Shown one piece after another: positions 23,994 through 64,000 of a stretch of 64,000 nucleotides of DNA (position 1 is its first letter; the number at the start of each line of letters is the position of its first letter). This DNA is from Leuctra nigra (taxonomy: Eukaryota; Arthropoda; Insecta; Plecoptera; Leuctridae). The notes beneath the pieces are model-generated. The model was not told the DNA's origin, made no database searches, and saw only the letters and a program-made list of their open reading frames with translations. Made by a program: the position numbers and the translations under genes. The DNA lies in NCBI GenBank assembly GCA_934045905.1, contig OW203771.1, positions 930,001 to 994,000 of the forward strand. Reading direction: 5' to 3'.

Positions 23994-25123
23994 GCTGGTT
24001 GCTCCTGCGCCTCCTGGTGGCTCTCCTCGTCTTGCACACGTCACATTGCCAGGAGGATGACACGGAGCCGAGCTGCGAGTTTGATGACGTGACGTCCTGA
24101 TTCCAGGCTGGTTGCTCCTGCGCCTCCTGGTGGCTCTCCTCGTCTTGCACACGTCACATTGCCAGGAGGAAGACACGGAGCCGAGCTGCGAGTTTGATGA
24201 CGTGTCGTCCTGATTCCAGGCTGGTTGCTCCTGCGCCTCCTGGTGGCTCTCCTCGTCTTGCACACGTCACATTGCCAGGAGGAAGACACGGAGCCGAGCT
24301 GCGAGTTTGATGACGTGTCGTCCTGATTCCAGGCTGGTTGCTCCTGCGCCTCCTGGTGGCTCTTCTCGTCTTGCACACGTCACATTGCCAGGAGGATGAC
24401 ACGGAGCCGAGCTGCGAGTTTGATGACGTGTCGTCCTGATTCCAGGCTGGTTGCTCCTGAGCCTCCTGGTGGCTCTCCTCGTCTTGCACACGTCACATTG
24501 CCAGGAGGATGACACGGAGCCGAGCTGCGAGTTTGATGACGTGTCGTCCTGATTCCAGGCTGGTTGCTCCTGCGCCTCCTGGTGGCTCTCCTCGTCTTGC
24601 ACACGTCACATTGCCAGGAGGATGACACGGAGCCGAGCTGCGAGTTTGATGACGTGTCGTCCTGATTCCAGGCTGGTTGCTCCTGCGCCTCCTGGTGGCT
24701 CTCCTCGTCTTGCACACGTCACATTGCCAGGAGGATGACACGGAGCCGAGCTGCGAGTTTGATGACGTGTCGTCCTGATTCCAGGCTGGTTGCTCCTGCG
24801 CCTCCTGGTGGCTCTCCTCGTCTTGCACACGTCACATTGCCAGGAGGATGACACGGAGCCGAGCTGCGAGTTTGATGACGTGTCGTCCTGATTCCAGGCT
24901 GGTTGCTCCTGCGCCATCTGGTGGCTCTCCTCGTCTTGCACACGTCACATTGCCAGGAGGATGACACGGAGCCGAGCTGCGAGTTTGATGACGTGTCGTC
25001 CTGATTCCAGGCTGGTTGCTCCTGCGCCTCCTGGTGGCTCTCCTCGTCTTGCACACGTCACATTGCCAGGAGGATGACACGGAGCCGAGCTGCGAGTTTG
25101 ATGACGTGTCGTCCTGATTCCAG
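23994..25123 (+). repeat. 113-bp tandem array: ten extra copies of intron end + exon 2 start
   Basis: Units start (at the first exon base) at 23994, 24107, 24220, 24333, 24446, 24559, 24672, 24785, 24898 and 25011; the real exon follows at 25124. Each holds about 100 bases equal to the first part of exon 2 (signal peptide to CEFDDV) and about 13 bases of intron end, ...CCTGATTCCAG. The first unit has TTCTAAG. Copies differ by single bases (GAGGAAGAC or GAGGATGAC; CCATCTGG at 24913). In every unit the LRR frame hits TGA inside CGTCCTGATTCC, and 113 is not divisible by 3, so no unit can be added to the protein. Minus-strand frames of 111 residues here are artefacts of the array. Confidence 0.95.
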
Positions 25124-26037
25124 GCTGGTTGCTCCTGCGCCTCCTGGTGGCTCTCCTCGTCTTGCACACGTCACATTGCCAGGAGGATGACACGGAGCCG
25201 AGCTGCGAGTTTGATGACGTGTCATCCACCTGCAGACATGTGACGTCATTCGCCTCCATCACTCCGCTGCTTCCAACTGAACCTCGAGCATTCTATTGGT
25301 TCCATCTAGAAGACAGTCCGGATGTGCAACTCACAAGTAGAGACTTCAACCATACGGCGTTCCAGAACACGTGGCGGATAAAACTAATCCGTTGTAACAT
25401 TTCCACAATCAATCCAGAACCTTTCACATTCTTGCCAAGATTAACAGAACTCAGAATCTGGTCCAACAATCTCACCGAGATCAGTTCAAGCTCATTCTTA
25501 GGTTTGGAACGCTTGGAGATGCTTGAACTGAATGACAACCAGATAGCGCCAGTAGCTGCTGACACTTTCAAGAACTTGCTCAATCTGACGGTTATAGATC
25601 TGAGCAACAACAAAATATCTTCTATAGCTGATAATATGTTTGAGAATCAGAGGGAACTTGAGGCGCTGCTCTTATCGCGTAACCAGATCGCAGTTGTGAA
25701 TGACAACACATTCAAGGGGTTGGTTCAGTTGGAGTACTTTCATTTGAGTAACAACAGGATCGAGAGTATAAGTCCTGGAGCCTTCACTGAGTTGACTCAA
25801 TTGTGGTATTTGCATCTCGGTAATAATAATCTCCAGAGTCTGCCTCCAGCGTTATTCCAGACCAACAAACAACTCTGGTACTTGGAACTGTCAGGGAATA
25901 ACCTGGCCAATCTGGCAAACTATCCTTTGAACATTCCATCTTTACATAGAATCGATCTGAGTAATGTCAAAATGAAGTCAATTTCCGATCTTTATTTCGA
26001 AATTTTGAAGAATGTGTCAATTCAATTCAATTTATAA
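25124..26037 (+). CDS. Secreted leucine-rich-repeat protein, exon 2
   Basis: The acceptor TGATTCCAG at 25115-25123 joins exon 1 in phase; the full protein is 310 residues. Residues 1-25 form a signal peptide (hydrophobic LLLRLLVALLVL, cleavage near HTSHC). A Cys-containing N-terminal part follows (CEFDDVSSTC). From about residue 90 to 298 there are nine leucine-rich repeats of 24 residues, such as LEMLELNDNQIAPV, LTVIDLSNNKISSI and LEYFHLSNNRIESI. No transmembrane segment, C-terminal cysteine cap or intracellular domain is seen, so it should be an extracellular binding or adhesion protein; the ligand is unknown. The end (IQFNL) directly meets repeat-like DNA and could be truncated. There is no ATG in the exon before the LRRs, which is why exon 1 is needed. 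It lies inside an intron of the receptor, on the opposite strand. Confidence 0.88.
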
Positions 26038-26084
26038 GCATTTTATTCTCCGATTCATATTTATACAGAGTACAATTACAAAAA

Positions 26085-26145
26085 AATAAAAAAATATATA
26101 AAAAGAAGAATAGCCCTCATGGGGTCAAAGAGACCCTGTGTGAGG
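26085..26145 (+). terminator. AATAAA and GCCCTCA..TGAGGGC hairpin after the LRR gene
   Basis: AATAAA at 26085-26090 lies 48 bases after the stop. Just behind, TAGCCCTCATGGGGTC and GACCCTGTGTGAGGGCA (26111-26145) form a stem with a five-base loop. The stem may instead belong to a retroelement tail. Confidence 0.45.
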
Positions 26146-26248
26146 GCATGGAAAGGTAAAGTAAACTTTTTAAACATAATTCAGATTGACAACTAAGGAA
26201 AAACAGACTGTGAGAAACAGATAAATACAACATTACCTATTAACAATA

Positions 26249-27190
26249 CTAGGAAAACGCTCTGTGTAACGCGTTGATGAGCGAGCACGGACACGCGCAA
26301 CACCTCGAACCGAAATTATGTCTATCGAAAATATCATTAAAAGCCAATAATTCTTGAAATTCGTCAGACTTGTAGGTATAAAAATCTCCAAATATTCCTG
26401 AAGTATTAGTCCCAATAACCATGCAAAGGTTTAAGTTGATCGATTGAACCTTTATGATTAAAATGTTCCTTGTTAATATTCAAAACTCTTAGGATCTATT
26501 TAAAAAAAATATACCTGGGACCACTCATATGATATAAGTGTGTGTACTTACACAATATTAGACGATCTGTTGAACGGTCATATCAGTTTCATACGTTTGA
26601 AAGTTTCTGCTCTAACTACCTTGGAACTATAAAGAGTCGAAGTAGCCGTGATCAACATTTTTGAGTTATTTGACAGCCATCACGCAAAATGCCCGTAAAA
26701 TGTCAATAACGTTTGGATTTAAACACAGATAAGTCTGAAAAATGTCAAAAATACAGATACTATTGGTACCAATGACCACGCGAAGTTTTAAGTTGATCGC
26801 TCAATCGGTTCTAGTTTAAATTTCAAAAATCATATGAAATATTTTTTTTAAATTTTAACCAATGGGAGGATTTGGCTGAAATTTTGTATGATTGGGTACA
26901 ATGTTGGTTGCAATGACTCTGCTAAATTTCAAATTGATCGGAGCAACCAATCGAAAGATAATTTTTTTTAAACTTGAACCAATCAAAGGAGCCCGTTCAA
27001 AAACGATCCCAGGGATCGCATAGATTACGTTAGCATATGTGCAAAGTTTCAGATCGATTGAATGTGCGGTTTAGCCTGGGCTGTGCGGACAAAAAAACAA
27101 AAAAACAAAAAAACAAAAAAACAAAAAAACAAAAAAACACACAGAGAAAGTGCCATAAGAGTACCGTGGTGACGCTCGCTACGCTCGCTC
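26249..27190 (-). mobile_element. Helitron-like non-autonomous element, full-length copy
   Basis: On the minus strand it starts near GAGCGAGCGTAGCGAGCGTC (27190) and ends ...AACGCGTTACACAGAGCGTT-TTC-CTAG at 26249, followed by T. It is about 940 bases. A (CAAAAAAA)n tract lies near its start (27085-27137). Interior phrases (GATCGATTGA, TTTCAGCCAAATCCTCCCAT) are shared with the copies at 28.1-28.9, 41.5-42.5 and 53.9-54.4 kb. No Rep/helicase frame is present. Confidence 0.65.
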
Positions 27191-27477
27191 AATAACGAGC
27201 TCGGTAAGAAATTATTAATAAATTAATATTCAACGGTAAGGTTACAAAAGTATTGTCATTTACATTTTCAACACACACTTGCATATTCAAGAAACTGAAT
27301 TAATTATGAAAACGCTATGTGTAACGCGTTGATGAGCGAGCACAGACACGCGCAACATCTCCAATCGAGCACGATCCATTCAATCAAAGATAGCTAACTG
27401 CATTATTACTGATTTTCATAGCAACTTTCCAACACTCTGGAACAACTGAGTGACAGATAGTGAGGGCTTTTAGCATA

Positions 27478-27945
27478 CTAGGAAAACGCTCTGTGTGACG
27501 CGTTGATGAGCGAGCACGGATACACGCAACACCTCGAACCGAAATTATGTCTATCGAAAATGGCATTAAAAGCCAATAATTCTTGAATTTCGTCACAGAC
27601 TTATATAAATATCTCCAAAATCTCCAAAAATATTGGTCCCAATAACCTTGCTAAGTTTTAAGTTGATCGATTACCCTTTGATTTAACGGTTCCTTGTTAA
27701 GTTTCAAAAATCACAGGATATGTTTCAAAAAATATACCTGGGACCACTCATATGATATGATATTAGTGTGTACACAATATCAGATCATAGATCAGATCAA
27801 TCTGTTGAACGGTCATTATTAGTTTCATTTCGTTTGAAACTTTCTGCTCTAACTACCTTGCCTTGAACTGAAGATTCGAAGTCGCCGTGAATTTGACAGC
27901 CAACGAGCAAAATGTCCCTAGAATTACAAAAACGTTTGAAAATAA
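27478..27945 (-). mobile_element. Helitron-like element, 3' half, reverse
   Basis: Begins with CTAGGAAAACGCTCTGTGTG on the plus strand (the reversed 3' end) and runs through the phrases shared with the 26.2-kb copy. The 5' half is missing, and it meets the forward copy at about 28.0 kb across an AT-rich junction and a T30 tract (28046-28075). Confidence 0.65.
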
Positions 27946-28044
27946 CGACAGATTAGACTGGAAATTGGCAAAAATATTAATAATAATTATTATTAATATT
28001 ATTATTAATAAAAATAATAATTGGCTCTTTTGGCACGGACCTCT

Positions 28045-28075
<31 letters not shown>

Positions 28076-28079
28076 CTGT

Positions 28080-28890
28080 TACTGACGATATACAGGTCAG
28101 AGTTTTTCTTCGATCGAGCTGAAATTTTGCACACATGTACGTAACATTTCTGATTGTTGCAGACCCTAATTTTTTTGAAATCCATTGATTGGTTCAAATT
28201 TAAAAAAAATTAACTTTCGATTGGTTGTTTTGATCAAATTGAAATTTTGACAAGTCATTACCCCCAACATTGTACCCAATCAAACAAAGTTTCAGCCAAA
28301 TCCTCCCATTGGTTAAAATTTAAAACCATCTTTCCTGTGTTTTTAGAAATTTAAACTATAACCGATTGAACGATCAACTTATAACTTCGCATGATGGTTG
28401 GGTCCAACATTATCTGCATTTTTGACAATTTTCATACTAATCTGTGTTTAAATCCAAACGTTATTGATATTTTACGGACTATTAGCGTGTTGGCTGTCAA
28501 ATTCACGGCGACTTCGACTCTTCAGTTCAAGGCAAGGTAGTTAGAGCAGAAACTTTCAAACGCAAATGAAACTGATAATGACCGTTCAACAGTCGATCTG
28601 ATATTGTGTAGACACACTTATATCATATGAGTGGTCTCAGGTATATTTTTTGAAGGAGATCCTGTGATTTTTGAAAATTAACACGGAACAGTTCAATCAT
28701 AAAGGTTCAATTGATCAACTTAAAGCTTTGCATGGTTATTTGGACCAATATTTTAGGAATGTTTTGAGATTTCTATACAAATCTGTGGCGAAATTTTAGA
28801 ATTATTGGCTTTTAATGACATTTTCGATAGACAGAATTTCGGTTCGAGGTGTTGCGCGTATCCGTGCTCGCTCATCAACGCGTTACTCAG
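28080..28890 (+). mobile_element. Helitron-like element, forward, lacking its very end
   Basis: Same interior as the other copies, in forward direction; stops at CAACGCGTTACTCAG without the final GCGTT-TTCCTAG. It contains the empty TTAA site GGCTTTTAATGACATTTTCG (about 28808) that is filled at 17163. Confidence 0.65.
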
Positions 28891-29239
28891 ATTCATTGGT
28901 TAAAATTTAAATAAATATCTCCTGATAGGCTGAAAAATGAAAACGGTCTTCGATAATTCTGATCAAACTCATATTTTGCATGATCATTAAGACCAATATT
29001 GTCTCTTATTTTACAAAATTTCATCCCAATCAGTTAAGAACGTATGAAGTTATTTACATTTTTAATATCTGTCAGTAATGAAGTATCGAAATGAATGTTT
29101 TCCAGTGCCAATTGAAAATTGATTCTGATTTGCTTTATGAACCAGGTGCTTAGATGCTATTTTAAAGTTTCGATGAAAAGCATACACTTTTAAGTTGATA
29201 TCATAATCAATTCCATATGGATGTATATGTTTTCTGTGC

Positions 29240-29319
29240 GTTGTGTACGCATTTCCGGTTCGAGAATTTGCACGTACCCGTGCTCGCTTATCAACGCGTT
29301 ACACTGAGCGTTTTCCTAG
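29240..29319 (+). mobile_element. Helitron-like 3' end fragment
   Basis: Terminal part only: GTGCTCGCTTATCAACGCG, hairpin, TTC-CTAG at 29316-29319, followed by T. Confidence 0.6.
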
Positions 29320-29379
29320 TATATTATTTGTGTACGAATAGGTAGTAAACAATGTGCAAGGATGATAGCGTATCATTTA

Positions 29380-29600
29380 AAAATCTAGAGGGGTAACCAA
29401 AGTTGTATTTTTCTAAGTTAATAAATATATAGGCAGATTTAAAATGACCGCCATTTTATGTCCATAATAATTGACCTTTATCCAATATTGCTTTATCCAA
29501 AAACAACATTTCATTGCTCTCAAAGTAAGTAGTCGAAATAATTTAATTCCAGTTTTGCTACTTTGAAGATTTAACAAAGCGCAGCAAGCAATGTGATTGG
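29380..29600. repeat. Fragment of the CAAAGTTGTATTT / GACCGCCATTTT repeat
   Basis: AACCAAAGTTGTATTTTTCT and AAAATGACCGCCATTTT correspond to words inside the palindrome at 54437-55380. Confidence 0.5.
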
Positions 29601-29655
29601 AGTGGTCTCCTGGCATACAAATGCGGACCTACATAACATACATGTCGCTAGGGCA

Positions 29656-29792
29656 GTCTTGGGGGGGGGGGGGGGGGGTAGACGGGGGGACAGACGGCGA
29701 TTCAATTTCCATCTTGTGGAAAATGCTCAATCAGCACTGCCAGAGCCTTTGCCAGTTCTCCCGTGGGGGGGGGGGGGGGGGGGGGGGGGCGT
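29656..29792. repeat. Two long G tracts
   Basis: About 18 G at 29661-29678 and about 25 G at 29764-29789 on the plus strand; G-quadruplex potential and sequencing-error risk. Frames crossing them are not taken as genes. Confidence 0.9.
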
Positions 29793-30236
29793 CCTCTGGG
29801 AGATGTACACTTTCGGAAACATAAATTGAGGAAGGTACAAGGGAAATGACGGACAATCGATGACTGCTTGTATTCAGAGGACATGAATCTATCTTCTTCA
29901 AAAGGCTTTTACTGATTCTGAAATCTTACTTTACCGTGTTGATATTTTAATATGTAGCTATCTATTGAGATAATCCCGTTATTATCATATCATTGGTCTT
30001 GTCACACAGCTGCTTTCAAGGTCTTTAGATCATCAAATATCAAACAGCATATTATTTGCTTCCTACTTGTGCTCGCTTATCAACGCTTTACCATTGCAGT
30101 ATTCCAGTTCATTATTTACATTTCACTGATATGCAAACTTCTTAAATCAGGCTAAATCTCAAGGCTTATCCTCGCAATGAACAGAAAAATGGTATTCGTT
30201 TTCTGTTCATAAGTTTGGCTTTTAATAGATTGATAT

Positions 30237-30702
30237 TATATTGCATATAGAACGTTTCACAAACTTTATTGTTCATTGTTTTAAATTATTTTAATCATTG
30301 TTTACTACCTGTCAAACTGTTATGTCAAACTCCTGATGAAGCTTGTCGAAGAAAGGCGAAAACGGAACTTGGTTGGCTGAGTGGTAACGCTCTGAACTTG
30401 TATTCGGATGCCCGGGTTCGATTCCCGCGGCCGTCCTTCCTGACTGGGTTTTTTTCGTGGTTTTCCCTCAGTCGACAGGCAAATGCTGGGAAGGTACCCT
30501 ACTAATAGGCCAACACCGCCTTCTTCCCACCTTACATCCTTTCCTACTCTTCACCATCATCTCCCAATCATCATCATAATCATTCATCCGTCGCCATTAG
30601 CCTCGCTGCAGAACAGTGCGACGTTAAGCCCCAGACAGGCGAAATTTTGAAAGATTCAATAAATAATGAAGTTTGTGAAACGTTCTATGCAATATAATGT
30701 TA
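30237..30702. mobile_element. Inverted-repeat element carrying a SINE in its loop
   Basis: TAGAACGTTTCACAAACTTT at about 30247 is mirrored by AAAGTTTGTGAAACGTTCTA near 30672-30690, with TTATATTGCAT continuing the arm. Between the arms lies the SINE at 30369-30660. Confidence 0.7.
30369..30660 (+). mobile_element. tRNA-derived SINE
   Basis: A box TGGCTGAGTGG at 30374-30384 and B box GGTTCGATTCC at 30415-30425, about 40 bases apart as in a pol III promoter, followed by a tRNA-unrelated body (TTTTTCGTGGTTTTCCCTCA, GCCATTAGCCTCGCTGCAG) and an A/T-rich tail. Reverse fragments of the body are at 40629-40785 and 31595-31660. It is not a tRNA gene: the cloverleaf does not close. Confidence 0.85.
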
Positions 30703-30754
30703 ATCCAGAAAAGTGACAAATAATTATAAAATAACATGCGTTAATGAACATCAA

Positions 30755-31302
30755 TAGGTCTGTTCGTTTTGCTTACTGCAGTTGCAGTAGCCGCAGCTTA
30801 CAGTAGGCCCTGGTTACTCTTGCAGTAGCTTGCTGTACCAACACAAAACGAACGCATTTGCAGCAGGATGGCAGGCTGGCCTTTTCCTATTGGTTGGGAG
30901 GTTTGTGAATTGGCGGGAAGATTGTAAAAATAAGTGAGGTTATGTTCTGCATTTATAGAATTCTTGTCTAATCCCAATGCATTTTTATATAAATATGTAT
31001 CATTTCATAACATATAACTAAACTTAACTCTGAAACAAATACTCATTTCCCTCCTCCTTAGGACTTTTTCACTATCCATCCATAAGAAACACATGTTATA
31101 TTTCAAACATCGGCCATTTTGCCGCCTACTGCAAAGTTACTGCATTTACATCATCTCCCTACCCAGCTGTAAGAGCAGTCACTGCGCAGCTACTGTCAGT
31201 GTCAAATCGAACACAATCGCAGTGACGGAACAGCAAGTTTAATGCAAAACGAACGGATTTGCAGTGAGCAGTAAAGTGCAGTAAGCAAAACGAACAGACC
31301 TA
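30755..31302. mobile_element. MITE with GGTCTGTTCGTTTTGCTTAC ends
   Basis: TA-GGTCTGTTCGTTTTGCTTAC..GCAG on the left is mirrored up to GAACAGACC-TA on the right. About 24-base inverted repeats, no frame, TA at both flanks. Interior is rich in GCAGTAGC/CTGCAGT words. Confidence 0.85.
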
Positions 31303-31367
31303 ATGATAACGTATTGTGCTGTACAATCCCCGACTAGTACTACATGTCTTACTACTCAAGATAACTA

Positions 31368-31512
31368 CAGATGCATCTGATGAGATACGTCAACTCTGAC
31401 TAGAGAGTAGACAATGGCGTGTAGTAGACTATGATGGGTTATGTTTTCATTGAAATCACTGTCTGTCACTTCGCCTATTCATTCATAGTTCACGTATCTC
31501 AAATCAGATGTA
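31368..31512. mobile_element. Small foldback MITE
   Basis: AGATGCATCTGATGAGATACGT is mirrored near 31490-31512 (ACGTATCTCAAATCAGATGTAT). Confidence 0.6.
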
Positions 31513-31654
31513 TTATACGAAAGCTTGAATATTACAAATGGTGGCAGAATGTGGGATATTCATGTTTATTTTTTCTCTTACTCAAATAAGTTGGTATTTA
31601 GTGGTGTTTAGCGTCACACTGGTCTGCAACTAGGCTAATGGCGACGAAAACATC

Positions 31655-31800
31655 TGTAACTCAGAGGTAGAAGGCCTCAAGTCCATTTCAATGAGTCTTC
31701 TTATTATCCATCATATTTGTAATGGTGACATGAGTCATTGTGCAAGAGAATACTTCAATGTAACTGTATTTGTTACATCAGTCAAATGACAATTGATGGA
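31655..31800. repeat. Dispersed repeat, also at 40153-40320
   Basis: Both contain AACTCAGAGGTAGAAGGCC, ATATTTGTAATGGTGACATG and AGTCATTGTG.AAGAGAATAC. Confidence 0.65.
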
Positions 31801-32004
31801 GCTCGATTACATGATTCCAAAAGTGTGCAGCCCAAAATCGAGAATATGGACTTCCGTCCTTCTACCTCTTAGGTAAAAATGAAAATGATGAGGAATTGGT
31901 AAGGATTGGCAATGGGAATGTTGCGATCGTGGCCGATTAGTATGTAACATTCCCAGAATATGCAGTGGAGTTAAAAATACAATATTGAGTCTCTTGGGCA
32001 CAAC

Positions 32005-32640: not shown

Positions 32641-32644
32641 TGAT

Positions 32645-33815
32645 TAATTGGACAAAATATGACTGCCTTACGTCGTCACTGACTGTCTATGGCAGAATGT
32701 ACAAGCGAAGTTAACAAGAAGAACATAACATTAATGCATTTTGAGTTATTATGAGAGCGCTCCTAAGGGGTTTTCTATTTCACTTTACCTTTCAGTTTGT
32801 TTTTTGTTTGCTATTTTGTGTTTTTGTAGGCAATATCAATGTTCAATCACGCTTTCTGATAGTTTGCAATTCGCTAATATAATAGCAGTCACACATATAG
32901 GATTTGTGCAACATCCTTCATTTACTCCTCACTTATACAACTTTATTTACTCCTTTATTTACAGGTACCCAACATTGCACTTACTTTGTTCAATTATAGT
33001 TTTATTTTGCTGATCACGTATTAAGTGATTTGATTTGTACAAAGCCCCTCTCAAGCCCAGTATAACGGCTCTCGTATTGCCCCAGGGGATGGGGGGGGGG
33101 GGAGGGAGGGGGCAAAGGATCAGTCTTAATCCGTCTCAATCCCTCTTCTTAACCAACACAGACCACGTGATTACAATGACTTTTATAACTCATCCATTAC
33201 GTTCTTCTTCTCTGCGGTGAAGTCTCTAGACACTGTCCATGGTTTTAATAAGTCTGGATACAACAAGCCATTTTCACGTATTTTTCAGGTTTTATGTTGT
33301 CAAACATTCCCATTTTCGCAGCTGTTATTCTTTCAAATTTTCCAAATGTTTGCTCGTCCATTTTTTTATGTATGATTAGTTTCCTCCACATTTTGTTTTA
33401 ATTATCATGTTTTGTTTTACAAAACAAAACTTTTTTTAAAAGTAAAATTTTTATCTAATTGTTTTCTGATTTTCTAAATTTCTTGACTTTTAAAACCTTT
33501 ACGATTTTTACATAAGACATGCTTTTTTGTTAACTTTGTTTGTTTTGACAAATTATCTCCCCATTTATGTTGTGATATTCATACAACCTTTTAATTTTTG
33601 CCTTTTCATATTTTTTTTTCTATAATTAACTATTATTGATTTCATTGAAAACCGTAAATATTTTTTTATTCTTAACATAATATGCTCATTGTTTACTTTC
33701 CTAATTCTTTTATGATAAGATTGCTGAACAAATAAAGATACACTTATAAGGATTGCTCCTACATCATCTTGAAAATTATTAACAAAATTATAAAAAAAAA
33801 TCATCAAATTATAAA
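32645..33815. other. Receptor intron DNA
   Basis: Contains a G10 tract at about 33090 and a T-rich, low-complexity stretch at 33330-33800. The short frames have no domain. Confidence 0.35.
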
Positions 33816-33821
33816 AAAAAT

Positions 33822-34850
33822 TCATTGCATTCATCGACTTTGAGAAGGCTTTTGATAGAGTAAATAGACCTAAGTTGATGGAAGTTCTGAGGCGTCGAGG
33901 GTTTCCGGAACATCTGGTCAAAGTAACTGAAAGTCTATATACCAACACAAAAATAGAAATAAGGACGGATGACAGGGTTTCAAAGACAACTACAGTAAAT
34001 AGAGGAGTACGGCAAGGTTGCAGTCTTTCACCTAGTCTTTTTAACATTTATATCGACGACATTCTTAGAGAATGGAAACTAATCAATAATGGAGGCATTA
34101 GGTTAGGACAAGAGCACACAATTAATTCATTGTTGTTCGCTGATGATCTTATAATAATGGAGCAAGATGAGGATGGACTGCAAAGAGCTATATTTACATT
34201 GGTACAGCTTGGCCGCCGTTATAATTTGAAATTATCCACAGGGAAAACGAAAATCATGGCTTTCAAGGGAACATTCCCGGTAAGATCGAAAATTGTAATT
34301 GACAATCAGTCTATTGAGCAAGTCTCTCACTTCAAATATTTGGGCTGTGACATAACATATGCTTTTGAGGAGGACATTACTCAGAAGCTGCACAAGTTTC
34401 AGTCTATATGTGGGACTATTCGACGAAATTTAAAAAACAAGACAAGGAAGGATACCCAAATCAGATTGTATAAGGTAATGGCGGTGCCAGCATTACTTTA
34501 CGGAAGTGAATCGTGGGTCGACAAGACTCGGGATAAGAGTCGCATCCAAGCTGCCGAGATGAAATTCCTAAGGTCGGTGAAGGGATGCACGAGGTTGGAT
34601 TGTGTAAGGAATGAAGAAATAAGGCAAGAGCTTCATGTTGAGAGTGTTAATGACACGATGGTGAAGTACAGAAGCAAATGGATTGAACATCTATCCAGAA
34701 TGCCTCCAGATAGGATCCCCCGGAGTGCCTACCATTACCGACCTCATGGAAGAAGAGATGTTGGCCGTCCACGGAAGAGGTGGAAGAACCCTTAGATGCC
34801 GGAACAGGCTAGAAGCCTACTCCTTGATGGGAAGAAGAAGAAGAAGAAGA
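33822..34850 (+). pseudogene. RTE-like non-LTR retrotransposon, 5'-truncated reverse transcriptase
   Basis: The frame begins within the palm (AFIDFEKAFDRVNR, first catalytic Asp) and is intact from there to the stop at 34793-34795: RGVRQGCSLSPSLFNIYIDDI, SLLFADDLIIM (catalytic FADD), KYLGCDI, and the C-terminal WIEHLSRMPPDRIPRSAYHY..GRRDVGRPRKRW typical of RTE-type elements. Endonuclease and fingers are missing, so the copy is dead on arrival. The 3' end is an (AAG)n tail at about 34832-34851, followed by AT-rich filler. It lies about 220 bases from receptor exon 35075-35225. Confidence 0.9.
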
Positions 34851-35074: not shown

Positions 35075-35225
35075 CCTGCGTTTGCTGCGTATGTTGTCCA
35101 GCTGCCTCTGCGTGCATTCCCCTATGCTCTGGCTGCCCCACAGCTCGATCCCCACACGAGCATACGTGAACGTCATGGAGCTGATCGGCAGGAAGTAGGT
35201 GATGAGAGTGAAGAACACGTTGTAG
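35075..35225 (-). CDS. TkR99D: Tachykinin-type receptor, TM5 exon
   Basis: The acceptor TGTGTTTCAG at 35226-35235 and donor AGG|GTGAGA at 35069-35074 bound 151 bases. The first base completes the Leu codon of the exon at 58241. The exon codes YNVFFTLITYFLPISSMTFTY (TM5), then YARVGIELWGSQSIGE and ...RQLDNIRSKRR, the third intracellular loop that contacts the G protein. RVGIELWG and SKRR before VVKMM are tachykinin-receptor hallmarks. The phase to the next exon is 0. Confidence 0.93.
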
Positions 35226-46460: not shown

Positions 46461-46946
46461 GGTGAACGTAAAAAAACCGACAATATTGACAGAGATTTAT
46501 CCACGGAAGCGCCATCCTGTACAGCAGCTGCTTTAAAAGAGAGAACTTGCCGCAGAGGCTATGAATACTGTGCGACTATCACAGCCAAGTCTGAGAGTTC
46601 GTACAAATTCGTGCGGCGATGTTCTAAAGGCAACGCGGGCGAAAGTGTCCGCATACCCGAGGGCAAAAAGTCACATTGCGAGGCGGATATATTATCTACT
46701 TCATCTTCTACTGATAAAGATGATTTATCTGGGAGTTTCACATCGGAAGTATGCCTTTGCGAGACTGATCTGTGCAACACGGAGGAGCTTAAGAAGACGC
46801 CCAAGGACTGCATTGAGAAGAAGGGGAAGGATTGCGACCCGAAGTCGGGTGGAAGCGCAGCAAGCGCTGGATCCGTCGTCAAGGCGGTGAAGAAGATTTG
46901 GTACACCGCAGCCGCCATTTTGTTGGTCTTGGTTATGACCTTTTAG
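46461..46946 (+). CDS. Ly6/three-finger GPI protein, exon 2
   Basis: The acceptor CACATTTCTAG at 46450-46460 opens phase 0 (GERKKTDNIDRD...). Joined to exon 1 the protein has 193 residues. The mature part has ten cysteines in Ly6 order: LKC-NEC, SC, TC, YC, RRC, HC, VC, LC and LCN, ending with the diagnostic EVCLCETDLCN. A linker with two further cysteines follows, then SGGSAASAG, a likely GPI attachment area, and a hydrophobic end (AAAILLVLVMTF) with no charged tail. Such proteins sit on the outer cell surface; insect members modulate channels or septate junctions, but the exact role of this one is unknown. No insect paralogue can be named from memory. Confidence 0.88.
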   Translation, partial: GERKKTDNIDRDLSTEAPSCTAAALKERTCRRGYEYCATITAKSESSYKFVRRCSKGNAGESVRIPEGKKSHCEADILSTSSSTDKDDLSGSFTSEVCLCETDLCNTEELKKTPKDCIEKKGKDCDPKSGGSAASAGSVVKAVKKIWYTAAAILLVLVMTF

Positions 46947-47202: not shown

Positions 47203-48347
47203 TCCCAGCAAACACGGGACATGGCAGGGACGTCCCTGCCATGTCCCCAAAATCCCAAAAGGGATATCCCTTTTGGGACCTCCCTGCCATGTCCCAGGGA
47301 GGTCCCATTTGGGATATCCCTTTTGGGACGTCCCCGCCATGTCCCAGGGAGGTCCCATTTGGGAGATCTTTATTTGAAAGTTCTCCCTTTTGGGACCTCC
47401 CCGCCATGTCCCTGGGAGGTCCCATTTGGGATATCCCTTTTGGGACGTCCCCGCCATGTCCCAGGGAGGTCCCTGTCGGGAGCTCTTTTTATGCTTCAGA
47501 AAATGTTTTGAACTTGTGACTAATCAAGTTTTAGATTCCGTTTGCAGCAAGCCGATTTTGAATAAAGTAATTGAATCAAATGTCTTTAAAATGAACATGT
47601 AAATATTTCCGTTTTTGTAGAATTATCATCTCTTTTCGATAACGACACCATCCAAAACCATCGCCACCATCATTTTGTATCCAAAATCAATTTACGATAG
47701 GTAATTATTAAATAAGGTAACAGTAGGTATTCAAGATGTTGATTAGTATCATAAACTATGCCAGAAATCTCAATAGGTACATTTAAAACAGATTTCTTTT
47801 ATCCGTTTCAATGTTTCAAAAATCTACTCAAAGCATGTCTAAAGCGACCTCTTTCTCACTTCGCGCCGTGGTCCCGTGGTTAGCCCGTCAGCCTTCTAAT
47901 CACAAGATCGTGTGTTCAAATCATGTTGGGGTAAAATAATTTGTATTGGTGTACTAATCATAATTGTAATTGTCTCTGTAATTTCGTCCACAGAATTGAA
48001 ATCCGATCAAAACTGACTGGGAAATAAATTATTTAATACAATTTTATTATTTTGTTGTCCAAGGCGTGTATCAGCCAAAGGCTGTTATTTAGCTAACAGA
48101 GGGCACCAGTAACACGATTTCTTTGGGACATGGCGGGGACCTCTCTGGGACCTCCCTGGGACATGGCGGGGACCTCCCTGGGACCTCTCTGGGACATGGC
48201 GGGGACCTCCCTGAGAGCAGTTTGGGGGGGTTATTGGACCTGGCCGCCATGTCCCTGGGATGTAACGGGGACCTCCCTGGGACCTCTTTGGGACCTCTTT
48301 GGGACGTGGCGGGGACGTCCCCACCATGTCCCAGTGTTTGCTGGGAT
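47203..48347. mobile_element. Element with TCCCAGCAAACAC ends and GGGACATGGC-repeat arms
   Basis: TCCCAGCAAACACGGGACATGG on the left is mirrored by CCATGTCCCAGTGTTTGCTGGGA on the right. The left arm (to about 47485) is built of GGGACGTCCC, CCATGTCCC and CCCATTTGGGATATCCC words; the right arm (48124-48330) of the reverse words GGGACATGGC and GGGGACCTCCCTGGGACCT. The middle holds unique DNA and a SINE. Overlapping frames on both strands are repeat artefacts. Confidence 0.75.
47868..48030 (+). mobile_element. Second tRNA-derived SINE, diverged
   Basis: A-box-like TGGTCCCGTGGTTAG at about 47870 and B-box GTTCAAATC near 47915, then a body with no further tRNA similarity, and TAAATTATTTAATAC-type tail. 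Different head from the SINE at 30369. Confidence 0.55.
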
Positions 48348-53953: not shown

Positions 53954-53955
53954 TT

Positions 53956-54415: not shown

Positions 54416-54436
54416 AGATTAGTATTAGGGCTATTA

Positions 54437-55860: not shown

Positions 55861-55862
55861 TG

Positions 55863-56015
55863 TTAGGCCGGGTAGGACCAACTCTGGATTAAGTTAACTC
55901 TCGATGATTAGTGGAAATTAGTGAATCTTATTGGCTATGGAATTCGCGCCAACTTGTTTCATTGGTTAACCCTCGAGAGTTAACTTAATCCAGAGTTGGT
56001 CCTACCCGGCCTTAG
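55863..56015. mobile_element. MITE with TTA duplication and GGCCGGGTAGGACCAACTCT ends
   Basis: TTA-GGCCGGGTAGGACCAACTCT..AGTTAACTCTCGA is mirrored almost perfectly to CCCGGCC-TTA. A 3-bp TTA target fits PIF/Harbinger-type elements. Confidence 0.85.
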
Positions 56016-56520
56016 TATCTCGCTTCTCACGTATCCTTCCTAATAATCCCCCCCCCCCAACCCCCCTGATGTCACAACTATACACACAATCTCGACCAAA
56101 GAACCTCATCGCAAGACAACGCCCAATGTTTGTCAAGGGAAAGATATCCCTCATCTCCGTGGACTTTGGCTCGCTATTTACCCGGCCAGTCTCGCCGAGA
56201 GACTGAAGTTGTTTGCACTCGGAATATCGCAAGGCAAGTAAACAAATAACCCCGGCGCACCTAATAGAGACGGAGGTCAAATGTAAACGAGAAGTTGCCG
56301 GGAAGTTGACAAAGAGTAATTATAGCTGGCCTTGAGGGTTTTGGACATTGGGGAGTTTGTTGAGAGTCTGTTGCGATACTTTTGTTCGGGGATGTACATG
56401 AGGCCCTAGGGTTTGAAGTTAAGTATAGAGAAAAGTTTCTTCGGGTTGGACAGGGAAAGCTATCAGGTATATGAGATGGGGTAAATATGTTTAAGCAACC
56501 AAATTTAAAGATTAATATAA
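56016..56520. other. Receptor intron DNA
   Basis: C-tract at about 56049. The frame 56002-56280 (minus) has no recognised domain. Confidence 0.35.
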
Positions 56521-56524
56521 GATA

Positions 56525-57003
56525 TTAGTAGGGCTAGGATGTTTAGTACATTTCCCTTTTTAATTTTTTGTTTAGACATGTCTAAAAATGATACATAAAT
56601 ATTTCTCATGTGTTCCTGATTTCAAAAATAAGTGTTTTATTTTGCCTGATTCTTTCTTTTTAAGGTATTTTTATCCCTTTTTATATTATTTAGGAAAATA
56701 ATATCAAATATTTGTTTCAAGTTACAACAATTCTTGTCTTCACAAAACTTCCATCCTCCACTTGGATGACCAACAAAGATACTTGAAACATCGACACATT
56801 CATACAACATTAAGTTCATTTTAACATCTTACTCCAAATTCAACTCCTAAACCAATACATCGAATAATATGTTGACGTATATTACAAAGCATAACATTGC
56901 ATAGGTCCTTTTTCGGGATTTTATGGTCCTTATTTAAATAGTCTTAAGGTACTATTTGCCTGTCTTTTTGGACGTTTCATAGGGCCTAAACATCCTAGCC
57001 CTA
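56525..57003 (-). mobile_element. Transposon fragment with GGGCTAGGATGTTTAG ends and GHPSGG peptide
   Basis: TAGGGCTAGGATGTTTAG at 56529 is mirrored by CTAAACATCCTAGCCCTA at 56985-57002. On the minus strand 56637-56819 codes ECVDVSSIFVGHPSGG and KFCEDKN..NLKQIFDII, also preserved in the copy at 10515-10960. Confidence 0.65.
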
Positions 57004-57004
57004 G

Positions 57005-57618
57005 TTATTAGATATAGATATTGCATTTAACACTTCGAGGTGCTTGAAAAGCTCCGCTTGCGAGCTTGTGAGCTTAAAATATGCATTTTTCCTTGAGTTG
57101 TATACATTCTGTTAGTGTGAAGATTTAGCTCAAGAATTGAAGAACCATTTGTGCCGCTGCTCTACCAAAAACCGATGATTTAGATGAAAACATCGACATC
57201 AATTTAAGTGATTACCTACAGTTTTTAAATTTGCGAAGTTTGGTTGATACTTGAAATCATGTTAGTGATGTTTGTCATAGAAATACAATTATTTTGGCAT
57301 TCAATGTTTGATCTTTAAAAATAACAGAAATTTAGTACCAAATTATAAGATGAATATATATTTTTAGTAAATTCAGCTTGGCTACATTTTCCTGACGAAA
57401 CTATGTTCTATGTATTCTATATTTGTTTTTGTTTTTGTTAAAATTTTCACCGTGGGGACATGGAAAATAGAATTTCCTCCCTTTATACCACTTTCAATTT
57501 TAAGTATAGGACAATTTATGAACTTCTGTGAATATTTCGGAATTTGGGTTAGGTGCTGCTTTACTAATTTATTCTAAGGTATAGGAGACCTTCAAACAAT
57601 GAAAATACATATTATTTC
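57005..57618. other. Receptor intron DNA
   Basis: No gene or structured repeat recognised. Confidence 0.35.
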
Positions 57619-58151
57619 TTAAGGTGGCTCAGACAATCGGGCATGGTCACAGATCTTCATAATTTTTTGTCTACTTATTGATAATCATGCCATACACAAT
57701 CCTTGAAAAAATTAAACACTTCTCGTGTCTAGTTTCTGAGATAAATTGAGTTTTCTTCCCCATGTTATCTTATGGCAGCCAAGTAAAATCACATTTAGGC
57801 TAATAATGAAGATCTAATTTTTATGTTGTCCCAACTTTGAACAAAAAACTTAATAGATAGTTGGACATCCTATAAGGAAAAAATTTAAAACAATACCAAC
57901 GTGTGCTATTTTAAAAGTTAGTATAAGCCAAAAACGAAATGATTTCCCTATAATTCCTGCGTTCAATTTTTGTTCATTCTCGGAAGTCAATAAATTGAAA
58001 CCTCGCTCTAAGACAGGAGTTGCAAGTTAAATGACATTTTATGATTCTTTTATACATAAATATAGTTGAAATGTTGGAAAAAGTAATTCATCATGATGGT
58101 CAATTCAAAAAATAAATATTTTTGAATGTTCGATCGGTGAAGCCACGTTAA
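57619..58151. mobile_element. TTAA-flanked MITE, diverged ends
   Basis: TTAAGGTGGCTCAGACAATC at the left and the reversed right end TTAACGTGGCTTCACCGATC; the interior follows 17163-17649 (TTATTGATAATCATGCCATA, CTTCTCGTGTCTAGTTTCTG). It ends 90 bases from the TM4 exon of the receptor. Confidence 0.75.
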
Positions 58152-58240
58152 TTCCAAACATTTAAAACTCGACTGAACTGGTGCTTGTTGCGTCAATTGA
58201 AAGTTAGAAAGCTTGTCAGTGGAGACATCACTGTACTTAC

Positions 58241-58456
58241 AGATACTCCTGATAGCTCTCAGTGGTCGGTCCGTCCGGCCACTCCGAGTAGCAGACAGTG
58301 CGCTGGTCTCCACTGGGGAACTCGTGTACATACGTCGTGAAGAACACCAGCATGGGACTGCTCAGCATTGTGGCCAGCACCCACACACCAGCAGCTATGA
58401 GCAGTGTGGTGCGCCGGCCCATGCGAGGACGCAGCGGCTTCATGATGGCCATGTAT
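58241..58456 (-). CDS. TkR99D: Tachykinin-type receptor, TM4 exon
   Basis: The first base after the acceptor ...TTGTGTTCTAG completes an Arg codon, so the exon begins at the R of the DRY motif: R-YMAIMKPLRPRMGRR (second intracellular loop). TM4 follows (LLIAAGVWVLATMLSSPML), then the second extracellular loop with VCYSEWPDG, whose Cys forms the disulphide to TM3. The donor is CT|GTAAGT and its last codon is completed by the exon at 35075 (QEY-L-YNVFF). In human NK1 receptor the same region reads MAIIHPLQPR..VCMIEWPE. Upstream exons are beyond the window. This exon's head is the template of the 150-bp array that follows. Confidence 0.93.
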
Positions 58457-61400
58457 CTAGAACACAAGCACAGTCATGTGACATATGTCGTGAACACCAG
58501 CATGGGACTGCTCAGCATTGTGGCCAGCACCCACACACCAGCAGCTATGAGCAGTGTGGTGCGCCGGCCCATGCGAGGACGCAGCGGCTTCATGATGGCC
58601 ATGTATCTAGAACACAAGCACAGTCATGTGACATATGTCGTGAACACCAGCATGGGACTGCTCAGCATTGTGGCCAGCACCCAGACACCAGCAGCTATGA
58701 GCAGTGTGGTGCGCCGGCCCATGCGAGGACGCAGCGGCTTCATGATGGCCATGTATCTAGAACACAAGCACAGTCATGTGACATATGTCGTGAACACCAG
58801 CATGGGACTGCTCAGCATTGTGGCCAGCACCCAGACACCAGCAGCTATGAGCAGTGTGGTGCGCCGGCCCATGCGAGGACGCAGCGGCTTCATGATGGCC
58901 ATGTATCTAGAACACAAGCACAGTCATGTGACATATGTCGTGAACACCAGCATGGGACTGCTCAGCATTGTGGCCAGCACCCAGACACCAGCAGCTATGA
59001 GCAGTGTGGTGCGCCGGCCCATGCGAGGACGCAGCGGCTTCATGATGGCCATGTATCTAGAACACAAGCACAGTCATGTGACATATGTCGTGAACACCAG
59101 CATGGGACTGCTCAGCATTGTGGCCAGCACCCAGACACCAGCAGCTATGAGCAGTGTGGTGCGCCGGCCCATGCGAGGACGCAGCGGCTTCATTATGGCC
59201 ATGTATCTAGAACACAAGCACAGTCATGTGACATATGTCGTGAACACCAGCATGGGACTGCTCAGCATTGTGGCCAGCACCCACACACCAGCAGCTATGA
59301 GCAGTGTGGTGCGCCGGCCCATGCGAGGACGCAGCGGCTTCATGATGGCCATGTATCTAGAACACAAGCACAGTCATGTGACATATGTCGTGAACACCAG
59401 CATGGGACTGCTCAGCATTGTGGCCAGCACCCACACACCAGCAGCTATGAGCAGTGTGGTGCGCCGGCCCATGCGAGGACGCAGCGGCTTCATGATGGCC
59501 ATGTATCTAGAACACAAGCACAGTCATGTGACATATGTCGTGAACACCAGCATGGGACTGCTCAGCATTGTGGCCAGCACCCACACACCAGCAGCTATGA
59601 GCAGTGTGGTGCGCCGGCCCATGCGAGGACGCAGCGGCTTCATGATGGCCATGTATCTAGAACACAAGCACAGTCATGTGACATATGTCGTGAACACCAG
59701 CATGGGACTGCTCAGCATTGTGGCCAGCACCCACACACCAGCAGCTATGAGCAGTGTGGTGCGCCGGCCCATGCGAGGACGCAGCGGCTTCATGATGGCC
59801 ATGTATCTAGAACACAAGCACAGTCATGTGACATATGTCGTGAACACCAGCATGGGACTGCTCAGCATTGTGGCCAGCACCCACACACCAGCAGCTATGA
59901 GCAGTGTGGTGCGCCGGACCATGCGAGGACGCAGCGGCTTCATGATGGCCATGTATCTAGAACACAAGCACAGTCATGTGACATATGTCGTGAACACCAG
60001 CATGGGACTGCTCAGCATTGTGGCCAGCACCCACACACCAGCAGCTATGAGCAGTGTGGTGCGCCGGCCCATGCGAGGACGCAGCGGCTTTATGATGGCC
60101 ATGTATCTAGAACACAAGCACAGTCATGTGACATATGTCGTGAACACCAGCATGGGACTGCTCAGCATTGTGGCCAGCACCCAGACACCAGCAGCTATGA
60201 GCAGTGTGGTGCGCCGGCCCATGCGAGGACGCAGCGGCTTCATGATGGCCATGTATCTAGAACACAAGCACAGTCATGTGACATATGTCGTGAACACCAG
60301 CATGGGACTGCTCAGCATTGTGGCCAGCACCCAGACACCAGCAGCTATGAGCAGTGTGGTGCGCCGTCCCATGCGAGGACGCAGCGGCTTCATGATGGCC
60401 ATGTATCTAGAACACAAGCACAGTCATGTGACATATGTCGTGAACACCAGCATGGGACTGCTCAGCATTGTGGCCAGCACCCAGACACCAGCAGCTATGA
60501 GCAGTGTGGTGCGCCGTCCCATGCGAGGACGCAGCGGCTTCATGATGGCCATGTATCTAGAACACAAGCACAGTCATGTGACATATGTCGTGAACACCAG
60601 CATGGGACTGCTCAGCATTGTGGCCAGCACCCACACACCAGCAGCTATGAGCAGTGTGGTGCGCCGGCCCATGCGAGGACGCAGCGGCTTCATGATGGCC
60701 ATGTATCTAGAACACAAGCACAGTCATGTGACATATGTCGTGAACACCAGCATGGGACTGCTCAGCATTGTGGCCAGCACCCAGACACCAGCAGCTATGA
60801 GCAGTGTGGTGCGCCGGCCCATGCGAGGACGCAGCGGCTTCATGATGGCCATGTATCTAGAACACAAGCACAGTCATGTGACATATGTCGTGAACACCAG
60901 CATGGGACTGCTCAGCATTGTGGCCAGCACCCAGACACCAGCAGCTATGAGCAGTGTGGTGCGCCGGCCCATGCGAGGACGCAGCGGCTTCATGATGGCC
61001 ATGTATCTAGAACACAAGCACAGTCATGTGACATATGTCGTGAACACCAGCATGGGACTGCTCAGCATTGTGGCCAGCACCCAGACACCAGCAGCTATGA
61101 GCAGTGTCGTGCGCCGGCCCATGCGAGGACGCAGCGGCTTCATGATGGCCATGTATCTAGAACACAAGCACAGTCATGTGACATATGTCGTGAACACCAG
61201 CATGGGACTGCTCAGCATTGTGGCCAGCACCCAGACACCAGCAGCTATGAGCAGTGTGGTGCGCCGGCCCATGCGAGGACGCAGCGGCTTCATGATGGCC
61301 ATGTATCTAGAACACAAGCACAGTCATGTGACATATGTCGTGAACACCAGCATGGGACTGCTCAGCATTGTGGCCAGCACCCAGACACCAGCAGCTATGA

Positions 61401-64000
61401 GCAGTGTGGTGCGCCGGCCCATGCGAGGACGAAGCGGCTTCATGATGGCCATGTATCTAGAACACAAGCACAGTCATGGGACATATGTCGTGAACACCAG
61501 CATGGGACTGCTCAGCATTGTGGCCAGCACCCAGACACCAGCAGCTATGAGCAGTGTGGTGCGCCGGCCCATGCGAGGACGCAGCGGCTTCATGATGGCC
61601 ATGTATCTAGAACACAAGCACAGTCATGTGACATATGTCGTGAACACCAGCATGGGACTGCTCAGCATTGTGGCCAGCACCCAGACACCAGCAGCTATGA
61701 GCAGTGTGGTGCGCCGGCCCATGCGAGGACGCAGCGGCTTCATGATGGCCATGTATCTAGAACACAAGCACAGTCATGTGACATATGTCGTGAACACCAG
61801 CATGGGACTGCTCAGCATTGTGGCCAGCACCCACACACCAGCAGCTATGAGCAGTGTGGTGCGCCGTCCCATGCGAGGTCGCAGCGGCTTCATGATGGCC
61901 ATGTATCTAGAACACAAGCACAGTCATGTGACATATGTCGTGAACACCAGCATGGGACTGCTCAGCATTGTGGCCAGCACCCACACACCAGCAGCTATGA
62001 GCAGTGTGGTGCGCCGGCCCATGCGAGGACGCAGCGGCTTCATGATGGCCATGTATCTAGAACACAAGCACAGTCATGTGACATATGTCGTGAACACCAG
62101 CATGGGACTGCTCAGCATTGTGGCCAGCACCCAGACACCAGCAGCTATGAGCAGTGTGGTGCGCCGGCCCATGCGAGGACGCAGCGGCTTCATGATGGCC
62201 ATGTATCTAGAACACAAGCACAGTCATGTGACATATGTCGTGAACACCAGCATGGGACTGCTCAGCATTGTGGCCAGCACCCAGACACCAGCAGCTATGA
62301 GCAGTGTGGTGCGCCGGCCCATGCGAGGACGCAGCGGCTTCATGATGGCCATGTATCTAGAACACAAGCACAGTCATATGACATATGTCGTGAACACCAG
62401 CATGGGACTGCTCAGCATTGTGGCCAGCACCCAGACACCAGCAGCTATGAGCAGTGTGGTGCGCCGGCCCATGCGAGGACGCAGCGGCTTCATGATGGCC
62501 ATGTATCTAGAACACAAGCACAGTCATGTGACATATGTCGTGAACACCAGCATGGGACTGCTCAGCATTGTGGCCAGCACCCAGACACCAGCAGCTATGA
62601 GCAGTGTGGTGCGCCGGCCCATGCGAGGACGCAGCGGCTTCATGATGGCCATGTATCTAGAACACAAGCACAGTCATGTGACATATGTCGTGAACACCAG
62701 CATGGGACTGCTCAGCATTGTGGCCAGCACCCACACACCAGCAGCTATGAGCAGTGTGGTGCGCCGTCCCATGTGAGGACGCAGCGGCTTCATGATGGCC
62801 ATGTATCTAGAACACAAGCACAGTCATGTGACATATGTCGTGAACACCAGCATAGGACTGCTCAGCATTGTGGCCAGCACCCACACACCAGCAGCTATGA
62901 GCAGTGTGGTGCGCCGGCCCATGCGAGGACGCAGCGGCTTTATGATGGCCATGTATCTAGAACACAAGCACAGTCATGTGACATATGTCGTGAACACCAG
63001 CATGGGACTGCTCAGCATTGTGGCCAGCACCCACACACCAGCAGCTATGAGCAGTGTGGTGCGCCGGCCCATGCGAGGACGCAGCGGCTTCATGATGGCC
63101 ATGTATCTAGAACACAAGCACAGTCATGTGACATATGTCGTGAACACCAGCATGGGACTGCTCAGCATTGTGGCCAGCACCCACACACCAGCAGCTATGA
63201 GCAGTGTGGTGCGCCGGCCCATGCGAGGACGCAGCGGCTTCATGATGGCCATGTATCTAGAACACAAGCACAGTCATGTGACATATGTCGTGAACACCAG
63301 CATGGGACTGCTCAGCATTGTGGCCAGCACCCACACACCAGCAGCTATGAGCAGTGTGGTGCGCCGGCCCATGCGAGGACGCAGCGGCTTCATGATGGCC
63401 ATGTATCTAGAACACAAGCACAGTAATGTGACATATGTCGTGAACACCAGCATGGGACTGCTCAGCATTGTGGCCAGCACCCACACACCAGCAGCTATGA
63501 GCAGTGTGGTGCGCCGGCCCATGCGAGGACGCAGCGGCTTCATGATGGCCATGTATCTAGAACACAAGCACAGTCATGTGACATATGTCGTGAACACCAG
63601 CATGGGACTGCTCAGCATTGTGGCCAGCACCCAGACACCAGCAGCTATGAGCAGTGTGGTGCGCCGGCCCATGCGAGGACGCAGCGGCTTCATGATGGCC
63701 ATGTATCTAGAACACAAGCACAGTCATGTGACATATGTCGTGAACACCAGCATGGGACTGCTCAGCATTGTGGCCAGCACCCAGACACCAGCAGCTATGA
63801 GCAGTGTGGTGCGCCGGCCCATGCGAGGACGCAGCGGCTTCATGATGGCCATGTATCTAGAACACAAGCACAGTCATGTGACATATGTCGAGAACACCAG
63901 CATGGGACTGCTCAGCATTGTGGCCAGCACCCAGACACCAGCAGCTATGAGCAGTGTGGTGCGCCGGCCCATGCGAGGACGCAGCGGCTTCATGATGGCC
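58457..64000 (-). repeat. 150-bp tandem array: at least 37 extra copies of intron end + TM4 exon head
   Basis: The phrase CATGGGACTGCTCAGCATTG occurs at 58351 (real exon) and then every 150 bases from 58501 to 63901, running off the window. Each unit, read on the minus strand, has a 26-base intron end (GTCACATGACTGTGC..TTGTGTTCTAG) and about 124 bases equal to the start of the TM4 exon. Relative to the units the real exon has three extra bases (FF for F). In nearly all units the receptor frame stops at TGA in CACATGACTG; only the unit boundary at about 63424 lost it. A C/G change (CCACACACC or CCAGACACC) splits units into two types in blocks, and about a dozen private single-base changes mark single units. 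Confidence 0.97.

Follow-up and report, generated by a model that had tools for sequence, protein, structure and literature searches.

Tandem arrays spanning predicted splice junctions in the genome of the stonefly Leuctra nigra

A 64,000-nucleotide stretch of the genome of the stonefly Leuctra nigra (the window; positions 930,001 to 994,000 of contig OW203771.1, here denoted C10, in a genome of 536 Mb and 144 contigs) contains two tandem arrays, with periods of 113 and 150 bp, in which the repeated unit consists of a predicted intron tail followed by the head of an exon. Arrays that span splice junctions recur in the sampled sequence of this genome above the level expected from random placement. 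With splice use predicted from the sequence, these arrays are probably splice-junction minisatellites of the kind described in lancelets under the name 'mirages', which would originate when GC-rich exon edges are duplicated in tandem and selection filters the outcome.

Arrays of the window and their genes

The 150-bp array reaches the end of the window with 38 copies, each of 150 bp. In full, it spans positions 58342-70922 (extended window coordinates; the far end is C10:1000922) and comprises 83.9 copies with 99% matches, one of which is 149 bp long, or 84 copies (12.6 kb) when the functional one is counted. Beyond the array lies a non-repeated AT-rich intron ending ...CATCTCCCT|CTGTGCTTGTGTTCTAG|ATACATGG. 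At its other end, the array runs into a predicted functional exon that encodes transmembrane segment 4 (TM4) of a receptor; the phase of this exon was taken from relatives, and no upstream exon was found. The exon product (YMAIMKPLRPRMGRRTTLLIAAGVWVLATML..., 71 aa) is 59-79% identical to ten proteins found, all from insects, seven of which are named tachykinin-like peptides receptor 99D and the rest carry general receptor or hypothetical names. By sequence similarity, we assign the gene to the insect tachykinin receptor TkR99D. Mapping of the relatives' proteins on the window indicates that the exons from TM4 to the C-terminus are open and collinear. No TM1-3 exon was recognized up to C10:1054000, so the upstream intron is probably longer than 50 kb. 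In the partial TkR99D sequence of Bacillus rossius (P0085), the match starts at the same TM4 exon and is preceded by unrelated sequence, as if the upstream intron had defeated the gene predictor.

The first 114 nt of the TkR unit are nearly identical to the functional exon. At the exon-side edge, 18 nt (ACGACATATGTCACATGA) resemble the exon just past the array (TTCACGACGTATGTACACGAG), with TTC missing and a few changes. Across the 82 full-length decoy units, only two substitutions fall at the AG positions of the acceptor. The distinct changes in the exon head comprise 8 synonymous and 8 non-synonymous ones against 89:247 possible, a marginal synonymous excess (p=0.045), and the density of mutations does not differ between spacer and exon head (p=0.13).

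The 113-bp array terminates in the predicted functional exon of a leucine-rich repeat (LRR) gene. The acceptor of its first copy is damaged (TTCTAAG). In the last copy, the interval from the upstream stop to the leader contains no in-frame ATG, and the exon with the start codon was not found. That the stretch preceding the LRR acceptor is an intron is suggested by one paralogue that lacks 1 bp immediately before the AG, a deletion that would break the frame if this stretch were coding. AG|GCTGG follows a similar intron tail in 15 of 15 aligned paralogues (CCAG in 14, TCAG in one), and no array of the LRR unit was found in the aligned paralogue loci. Among the 40 places of this family that are listed (48 candidates, 40 scored, so that the counts are lower bounds), one has an array and 39 do not. 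By eye, the 113-bp and 150-bp units have only a 7-mer in common.

The first-pass annotation, which described two arrays on opposite strands, with each copy spanning a 3' splice site and each array adjoining a functional exon, is confirmed for the predicted LRR and TkR99D exons. It assigned the arrays to two unrelated genes; the two are instead nested, with the LRR gene located antisense inside the TkR99D intron between exons TM5 (35225) and TM6 (15097).

A third, decayed array adjoins the TM6 exon. The 20-mer AGGTGGTGAAGATGATGATG, which combines the acceptor end with the exon head, has six further matches with at most 3 mismatches, all within 15160-15779, and none elsewhere in the window or in 100 shuffles. 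Five partial copies read TTCTAG|GTGGTGAAG..., with TAG retained in four and replaced by TTG in one. The motif is partly of low complexity (GATGATG) and the shuffles keep the dinucleotides of the whole window rather than local composition, so the argument rests on TAG|GTGGTGAAG. An element of about 395 bp between TTAA sites, presumably a piggyBac-like miniature inverted-repeat transposable element, sits within this array, which implies that the array predates the insertion.

Recurrence in the sampled sequence

The census covered 327,007 bases, namely 144 kb around the window, 93 kb of LRR-paralogue neighborhoods (5 kb of which were taken to follow an array) and 90 kb of arbitrary stretches fixed beforehand by round coordinates (C1:20.00-20.06 Mb, C3:10.00-10.02 Mb and C5:25.00-25.01 Mb). 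Tandem Repeats Finder recovers both the 113-bp and the 150-bp arrays. In the census, arrays were counted at a period of at least 40 and at least 4 copies, a threshold chosen after arrays had been seen; the TM6 array falls below it and was left out. Ten arrays pass, of which five span an acceptor, one spans a donor, two are exon-internal and two are unplaced (Table 1). In the arbitrary 90 kb, all three arrays span a splice junction, for which random placement gives a probability of 2.5e-6 to 2.6e-4 if a junction density of 0.2-1 per kb is assumed; C5:25.00-25.01 Mb contains no array that passes the threshold. In the whole census, 6 of the 10 arrays are junction-spanning (probability at most 1e-4), where the junction densities are likewise assumed, the window was picked by its reader for its arrays and the exon calls are our own. 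Recurrence beyond chance, as surmised in the first-pass annotation from the two arrays, is thus observed both in the arbitrary stretches and in the census as a whole, and the window itself holds the degenerate TM6 array in addition.

Table 1. Arrays, exons and the inserted element in the window, and arrays elsewhere in the census
Feature	Position	Strand	Period (bp) x copies	Unit or remarks
Ankyrin-repeat gene end, exon-internal array	183-1123	+	102 x 9	in-frame unit grouped by threes into 306-bp blocks (97% alike); coding rather than junction-spanning
TkR99D last coding exon, with stop codon	11055..11238	-		without array; protein mapping, edges by eye
TkR99D TM6-TM7 exon, predicted functional	14901..15097	-		protein mapping, edges by eye at AG and GT
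Degenerate acceptor-spanning array beside TM6 exon	15160..15840	-	5 extra copies	TTCTAG|GTGGTGAAGATGATGATG-like acceptor + about 18-20 bp exon head
Inserted element, about 395 bp	15271..15664	-		long terminal inverted repeats, between TTAA sites; splits TM6 array
LRR acceptor-spanning array	23979..25227	+	113 x 11	15 nt intron tail TCGTCCTGATTCCAG + 98 nt exon head; all steps exactly 113 bp; Tandem Repeats Finder
LRR exon, predicted functional	25124..26037	+		hydrophobic leader + leucine-rich repeats, to stop codon
TkR99D TM5 exon	35075..35225	-		without array; protein mapping, edges by eye
TkR99D TM4 exon, predicted functional, 216 bp	58241..58456	-		terminates array; acceptor TAG|A TAC in DRY motif; donor CT|GTAAGT
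TkR acceptor-spanning array (window part)	58342-64000	-	150 x 38	17 nt intron tail CTGTGCTTGTGTTCTAG + 133 nt exon head
Odorant-receptor-like acceptor-spanning array	L023+L029 (LRR-paralogue flanks)		126 x 4.8	32 nt intron + 94 nt exon
Lipocalin acceptor-spanning array	C1		143 x 72.5	42 nt intron + 101 nt exon
Stomatin acceptor-spanning array	C3 (L036)		48 x 31.9	25 nt intron + 23 nt exon
CUB-like donor-spanning array	C3		88 x 5.0	22 nt exon + 66 nt intron
Exon-internal array, classed on open frame alone	L024:8050-8720 (C6)		69 x 9.7	open in frame on both strands; probably coding repeat
Unplaced array	L010:64-880 (C10:1004064-1004880)		165 x 4.9	GC-rich, tied to no gene; mostly open in frame
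Unplaced array	L020:7751-8572 (C6)		149 x 5.3	GC-rich, tied to no gene

The lipocalin array is still running where a 4-kb extension ends and terminates in the exon GVWYEVERSFYMMEIASS... of its gene. This exon itself has no Pfam match and its PDB matches are meaningless (E 0.41 and worse); the gene is named after its next exon, which matches the Pfam lipocalin family with E=0.011 (below cut-off) and sandercyanin, which we take to be a lipocalin, in PDB with E=1.6e-4. The exon in which the stomatin array terminates matches stomatin in PDB (E=2e-23) and Band_7 (E=6e-9). In the odorant-receptor-like array, the last copy runs into the exon of a 7tm_6-like gene; the family is matched at E=4e-4, below the curated cut-off, and this array is less certain. 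The donor array is a mirror image of the others, in that the exon tail ACAGTGCCGTCCGCAGTGTTCA is followed by GTGAGT and the rest of a 66-nt intron segment, and the exon body lies upstream. Its exon has no Pfam match and belongs to a gene that, from the look of the sequence, we presume to be CUB-like; one Rhodnius protein was found, with 56% identity over 77 aa up to the donor codon, and this protein continues past that point.

Origin and persistence of the arrays

The explanation that we favor involves three steps. In the first, tandem duplication would affect a GC-rich segment of some 50-150 bp that lies across the border of an exon; all ten units of the census are within the GC-richest 0.9-11.2% of background windows of the same length (background of 136,500 bases, GC 0.358). 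In the second, to judge by the anatomy of the arrays, the duplication would be tolerated when a complete splice site remains on the copy contiguous with the exon body, that is, the last copy at an acceptor and the first copy at a donor. Nearly all decoys that were read retain the splice site. The decoy acceptors are locally as good as the functional one but have no strong 5' splice site nearby, so under the exon definition model the functional acceptor should be chosen. GTAAGT, GTGAGT and GTATGT are absent from the five acceptor arrays (for TkR, from the part in the window), the donor array contains GTGAGT five times, and the predicted functional exons measure 216, 204, 424 and 125 bp. A transcript that used a decoy would usually meet a stop codon. 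In the gene's own frame, this is the case for 36 of 36 TkR decoys tested in the window (35 after 43 codons and one after 93), 10 of 10 LRR decoys and, among decoys located by exact pattern, 71 of 71 in lipocalin and 28 of 28 in stomatin. The mis-spliced RNA would then be cleared by nonsense-mediated decay, for which a role in sheltering poorly spliced novelties has been proposed for new introns in Drosophila (PMC2809761). Duplications located wholly inside an exon should survive only in frame: the exon-internal ankyrin array has a period of 102, and the junction-spanning periods (113, 150, 126, 143, 48 and 88) obey no frame rule, three of the six being multiples of 3.

The third step, growth and homogenization by unequal exchange or slippage, would make neighboring copies alike and leave the edges diverged, and is partly borne out. 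Copies differ on average by 0.9% in TkR and 0.8% in lipocalin, neighbors are more alike than shuffled copies in both arrays (p about 0.005 each), and divergence at the edge is seen in the first LRR copy and on the exon side of TkR. This scheme would require no machinery directed at 3' splice sites, and both kinds of junction are hit, with the acceptors of LRR, TkR TM4, odorant-receptor-like, lipocalin and stomatin genes, along with the decayed TkR TM6 array, and one donor.

Several observations weigh against this explanation. Neighboring LRR copies are not significantly more alike (p=0.15); the stomatin units were out of register, and their comparison was discarded. None of the three odorant-receptor-like decoys meets a stop inside the array and the first copy has no intron tail, so that this array could be an in-frame exon repeat. 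The ankyrin array is the sole independent instance of the in-frame rule, given that L024 is classed by its open frame and L010 is open yet unplaced. GC-rich exon seeds alone do not account for the stomatin and CUB-like units, because these are half or mostly intron, and GC-richness and exon content are confounded. Furthermore, no purely intronic exon-adjacent array was recognized among the ten, and this hints at something junction-specific because selection would tolerate such arrays equally.

This hint leads to the alternative that mutation coupled to splicing or transcription at exon starts (copying back of a lariat, R-loops or replication stress) prefers acceptor-spanning units, which we consider unlikely. 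Apart from the lack of intronic arrays, it draws on the excess of acceptors over donors (5:1, rising to 6:1 when the decayed TM6 array is counted), on the shortness of the intron tails (15-42 nt, about the usual span between branch point and acceptor) and on the left edge of the unit, which in TkR and LRR, by eye, follows candidate branch sites at a distance of a few nucleotides. However, the excess is indistinguishable from 1:1 (p=0.22, and p=0.125 for 6:1), short tails are equally expected if the acceptor alone must survive, and the donor array is a counter-example to an origin bound solely to the 3' splice site, the kind of mechanism that the first-pass annotation had raised; an acceptor-specific mechanism is unproven. 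R-loops, also put forward there, are not generally favored because four of the five acceptor units (TkR, LRR, odorant-receptor-like and lipocalin) show a coding-strand GC skew close to zero, although it is +0.48 in stomatin.

Selection for the decoys themselves, such that arrays regulate their genes through wasted transcripts or delayed splicing, was another suggestion of the first-pass annotation and appears very improbable. The retention of AG in nearly all TkR copies and the synonymous excess noted above are what it would predict, but given that TkR and lipocalin copies differ by only 0.9% and 0.8%, respectively, youth and homogenization explain this conservation. The copy numbers range from about 5 to 84, the arrays have no common design, the genes are of unrelated function, decoy frames are interrupted by stops in all but one of the five acceptor arrays, and 39 of the 40 listed LRR places do without an array.

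It is still harder to believe that the arrays are coding sequence, read in frame into repeats of a protein: 126, 150 and 48 are multiples of 3 and the odorant-receptor-like array is open in frame, but 113, 143 and 88 are not, the decoys of LRR, TkR, lipocalin and stomatin contain stops, and no such repeat is present in any of the six TkR99D-type relatives whose sequences were read. As for an assembly artefact, which would be suggested by a 200-N gap 2.5 kb past the TkR array and by the inexact copy numbers of long arrays, it is scarcely credible: there are seven loci, spread over C1, C3 and C10, the arrays of the LRR, TkR, stomatin, CUB-like and odorant-receptor-like genes are bounded at either end by non-repeated sequence, and in two arrays the copies differ in an ordered way.

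Extrapolation from three arrays in 94 kb yields about 17,000 arrays per genome (Poisson 95% range about 3,500-50,000). That the genome would indeed hold thousands of splice-junction arrays produced by a mutational process acting at junctions, with exon edges as the main source of new satellite DNA and introns growing by copying their own splice sites, seems doubtful to us. Should this density apply to the whole genome, junction arrays would rank among the main ways in which introns grow and satellites arise in this lineage, and the decoys could mislead gene predictors by being taken for exons. At TkR99D, 84 near-identical acceptors in front of one working exon would constitute a natural experiment on 3' splice-site choice and on the decoy load that is tolerated.

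Relation to known repeats and other features

Minisatellite-like tandem repeats at intron-exon boundaries, the 'mirages', have been described in the lancelet genes Adh3, BflGb6 and BflGb9, the last two encoding globins; the BflGb6 unit consists of the 3' end of an intron and the 5' part of an exon (150-160 bp), and the BflGb9 unit covers the 3' boundary of an exon (157 bp). Many copies retain splice signals, concerted evolution operates inside the arrays with the edges excluded, and RT-PCR (reverse transcription PCR) suggests undisturbed splicing (PMC3087553). Mirages are further characterized by length polymorphism and somatic instability. A mirage in PGBD5 has been added in another report, which also cites Adh and troponin C (PMC3902484). 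The TkR TM4, LRR, lipocalin, stomatin and CUB-like arrays share with mirages a tandem unit that spans an intron-exon boundary and the involvement of both acceptor and donor boundaries (the latter in the CUB-like gene) in one genome. Concerted evolution may operate here as well, with neighbor similarity in TkR and lipocalin but no significant effect in LRR, and the divergence at the edges of the LRR and TkR arrays resembles that reported for mirages. Unlike the mirages, the arrays of the census occur in an insect, reach 84 copies compared with 3 and 6 in two BflGb6 haplotypes, and were encountered in six genes within about 330 kb; undisturbed splicing was suggested there by RT-PCR, and splicing here is predicted from DNA sequence. 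The design is that of the mirages, and the differences lie in the animal group, in the copy number and in an apparent density that would be extreme if it holds. Among the titles and abstract beginnings returned by literature searches, none names a junction array in an insect, which is no proof of absence.

The AGGT route of intron gain of Rogers (potato RdRp; PMC4974935) likewise involves tandem duplication around splice signals, including an inherited branch site, tract and acceptor. There, the unit supplies the GT and the AG of the new intron, and we rejected this route for the TkR (window part), LRR and CUB-like arrays, in which AGGT does not occur at all. In contrast to such gain, there is no sign of a new intron here, and the acceptor units have no strong donor. 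AGGT is found twice in the 10.4 kb of the lipocalin array, 4 times in the odorant-receptor-like array and 30 times in the stomatin array. The junctions of the odorant-receptor-like (L023/L029) and stomatin (L036) units read AG|GT, and because of this they could act as small introns or recursive splice points and could become introns. In-frame coding repeats were rejected as a model on the grounds of period and decoy stops given above, with the odorant-receptor-like array as the exception.

In human genes of segmental duplications, variable internal tandem repeats occur at exon-intron boundaries and, like the arrays described here, are minisatellites that alter exon or intron length. In the excerpt of that report, the units average about 30 bp in 4 copies, half of them are coding, and no splice-site arrays of dozens of copies are mentioned (PMC2812944).

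With regard to the unplaced arrays, the open frames of L010 and L020 yielded no Pfam match above the curated cut-off, and Rfam found nothing at gathering scores in these two loci or in the window. Other features of the window include two reverse-transcriptase-like open frames on the plus strand (18282-19822 and 33815-34795), recognized by look only, and an open frame at 46461-46946 (+) with weak similarity to Quiver/Ly-6 proteins (Pfam E=2.6e-4, below cut-off). A minisatellite of the GGGACCTCCC type occupies positions 47261-48305, without a link to any recognized exon.

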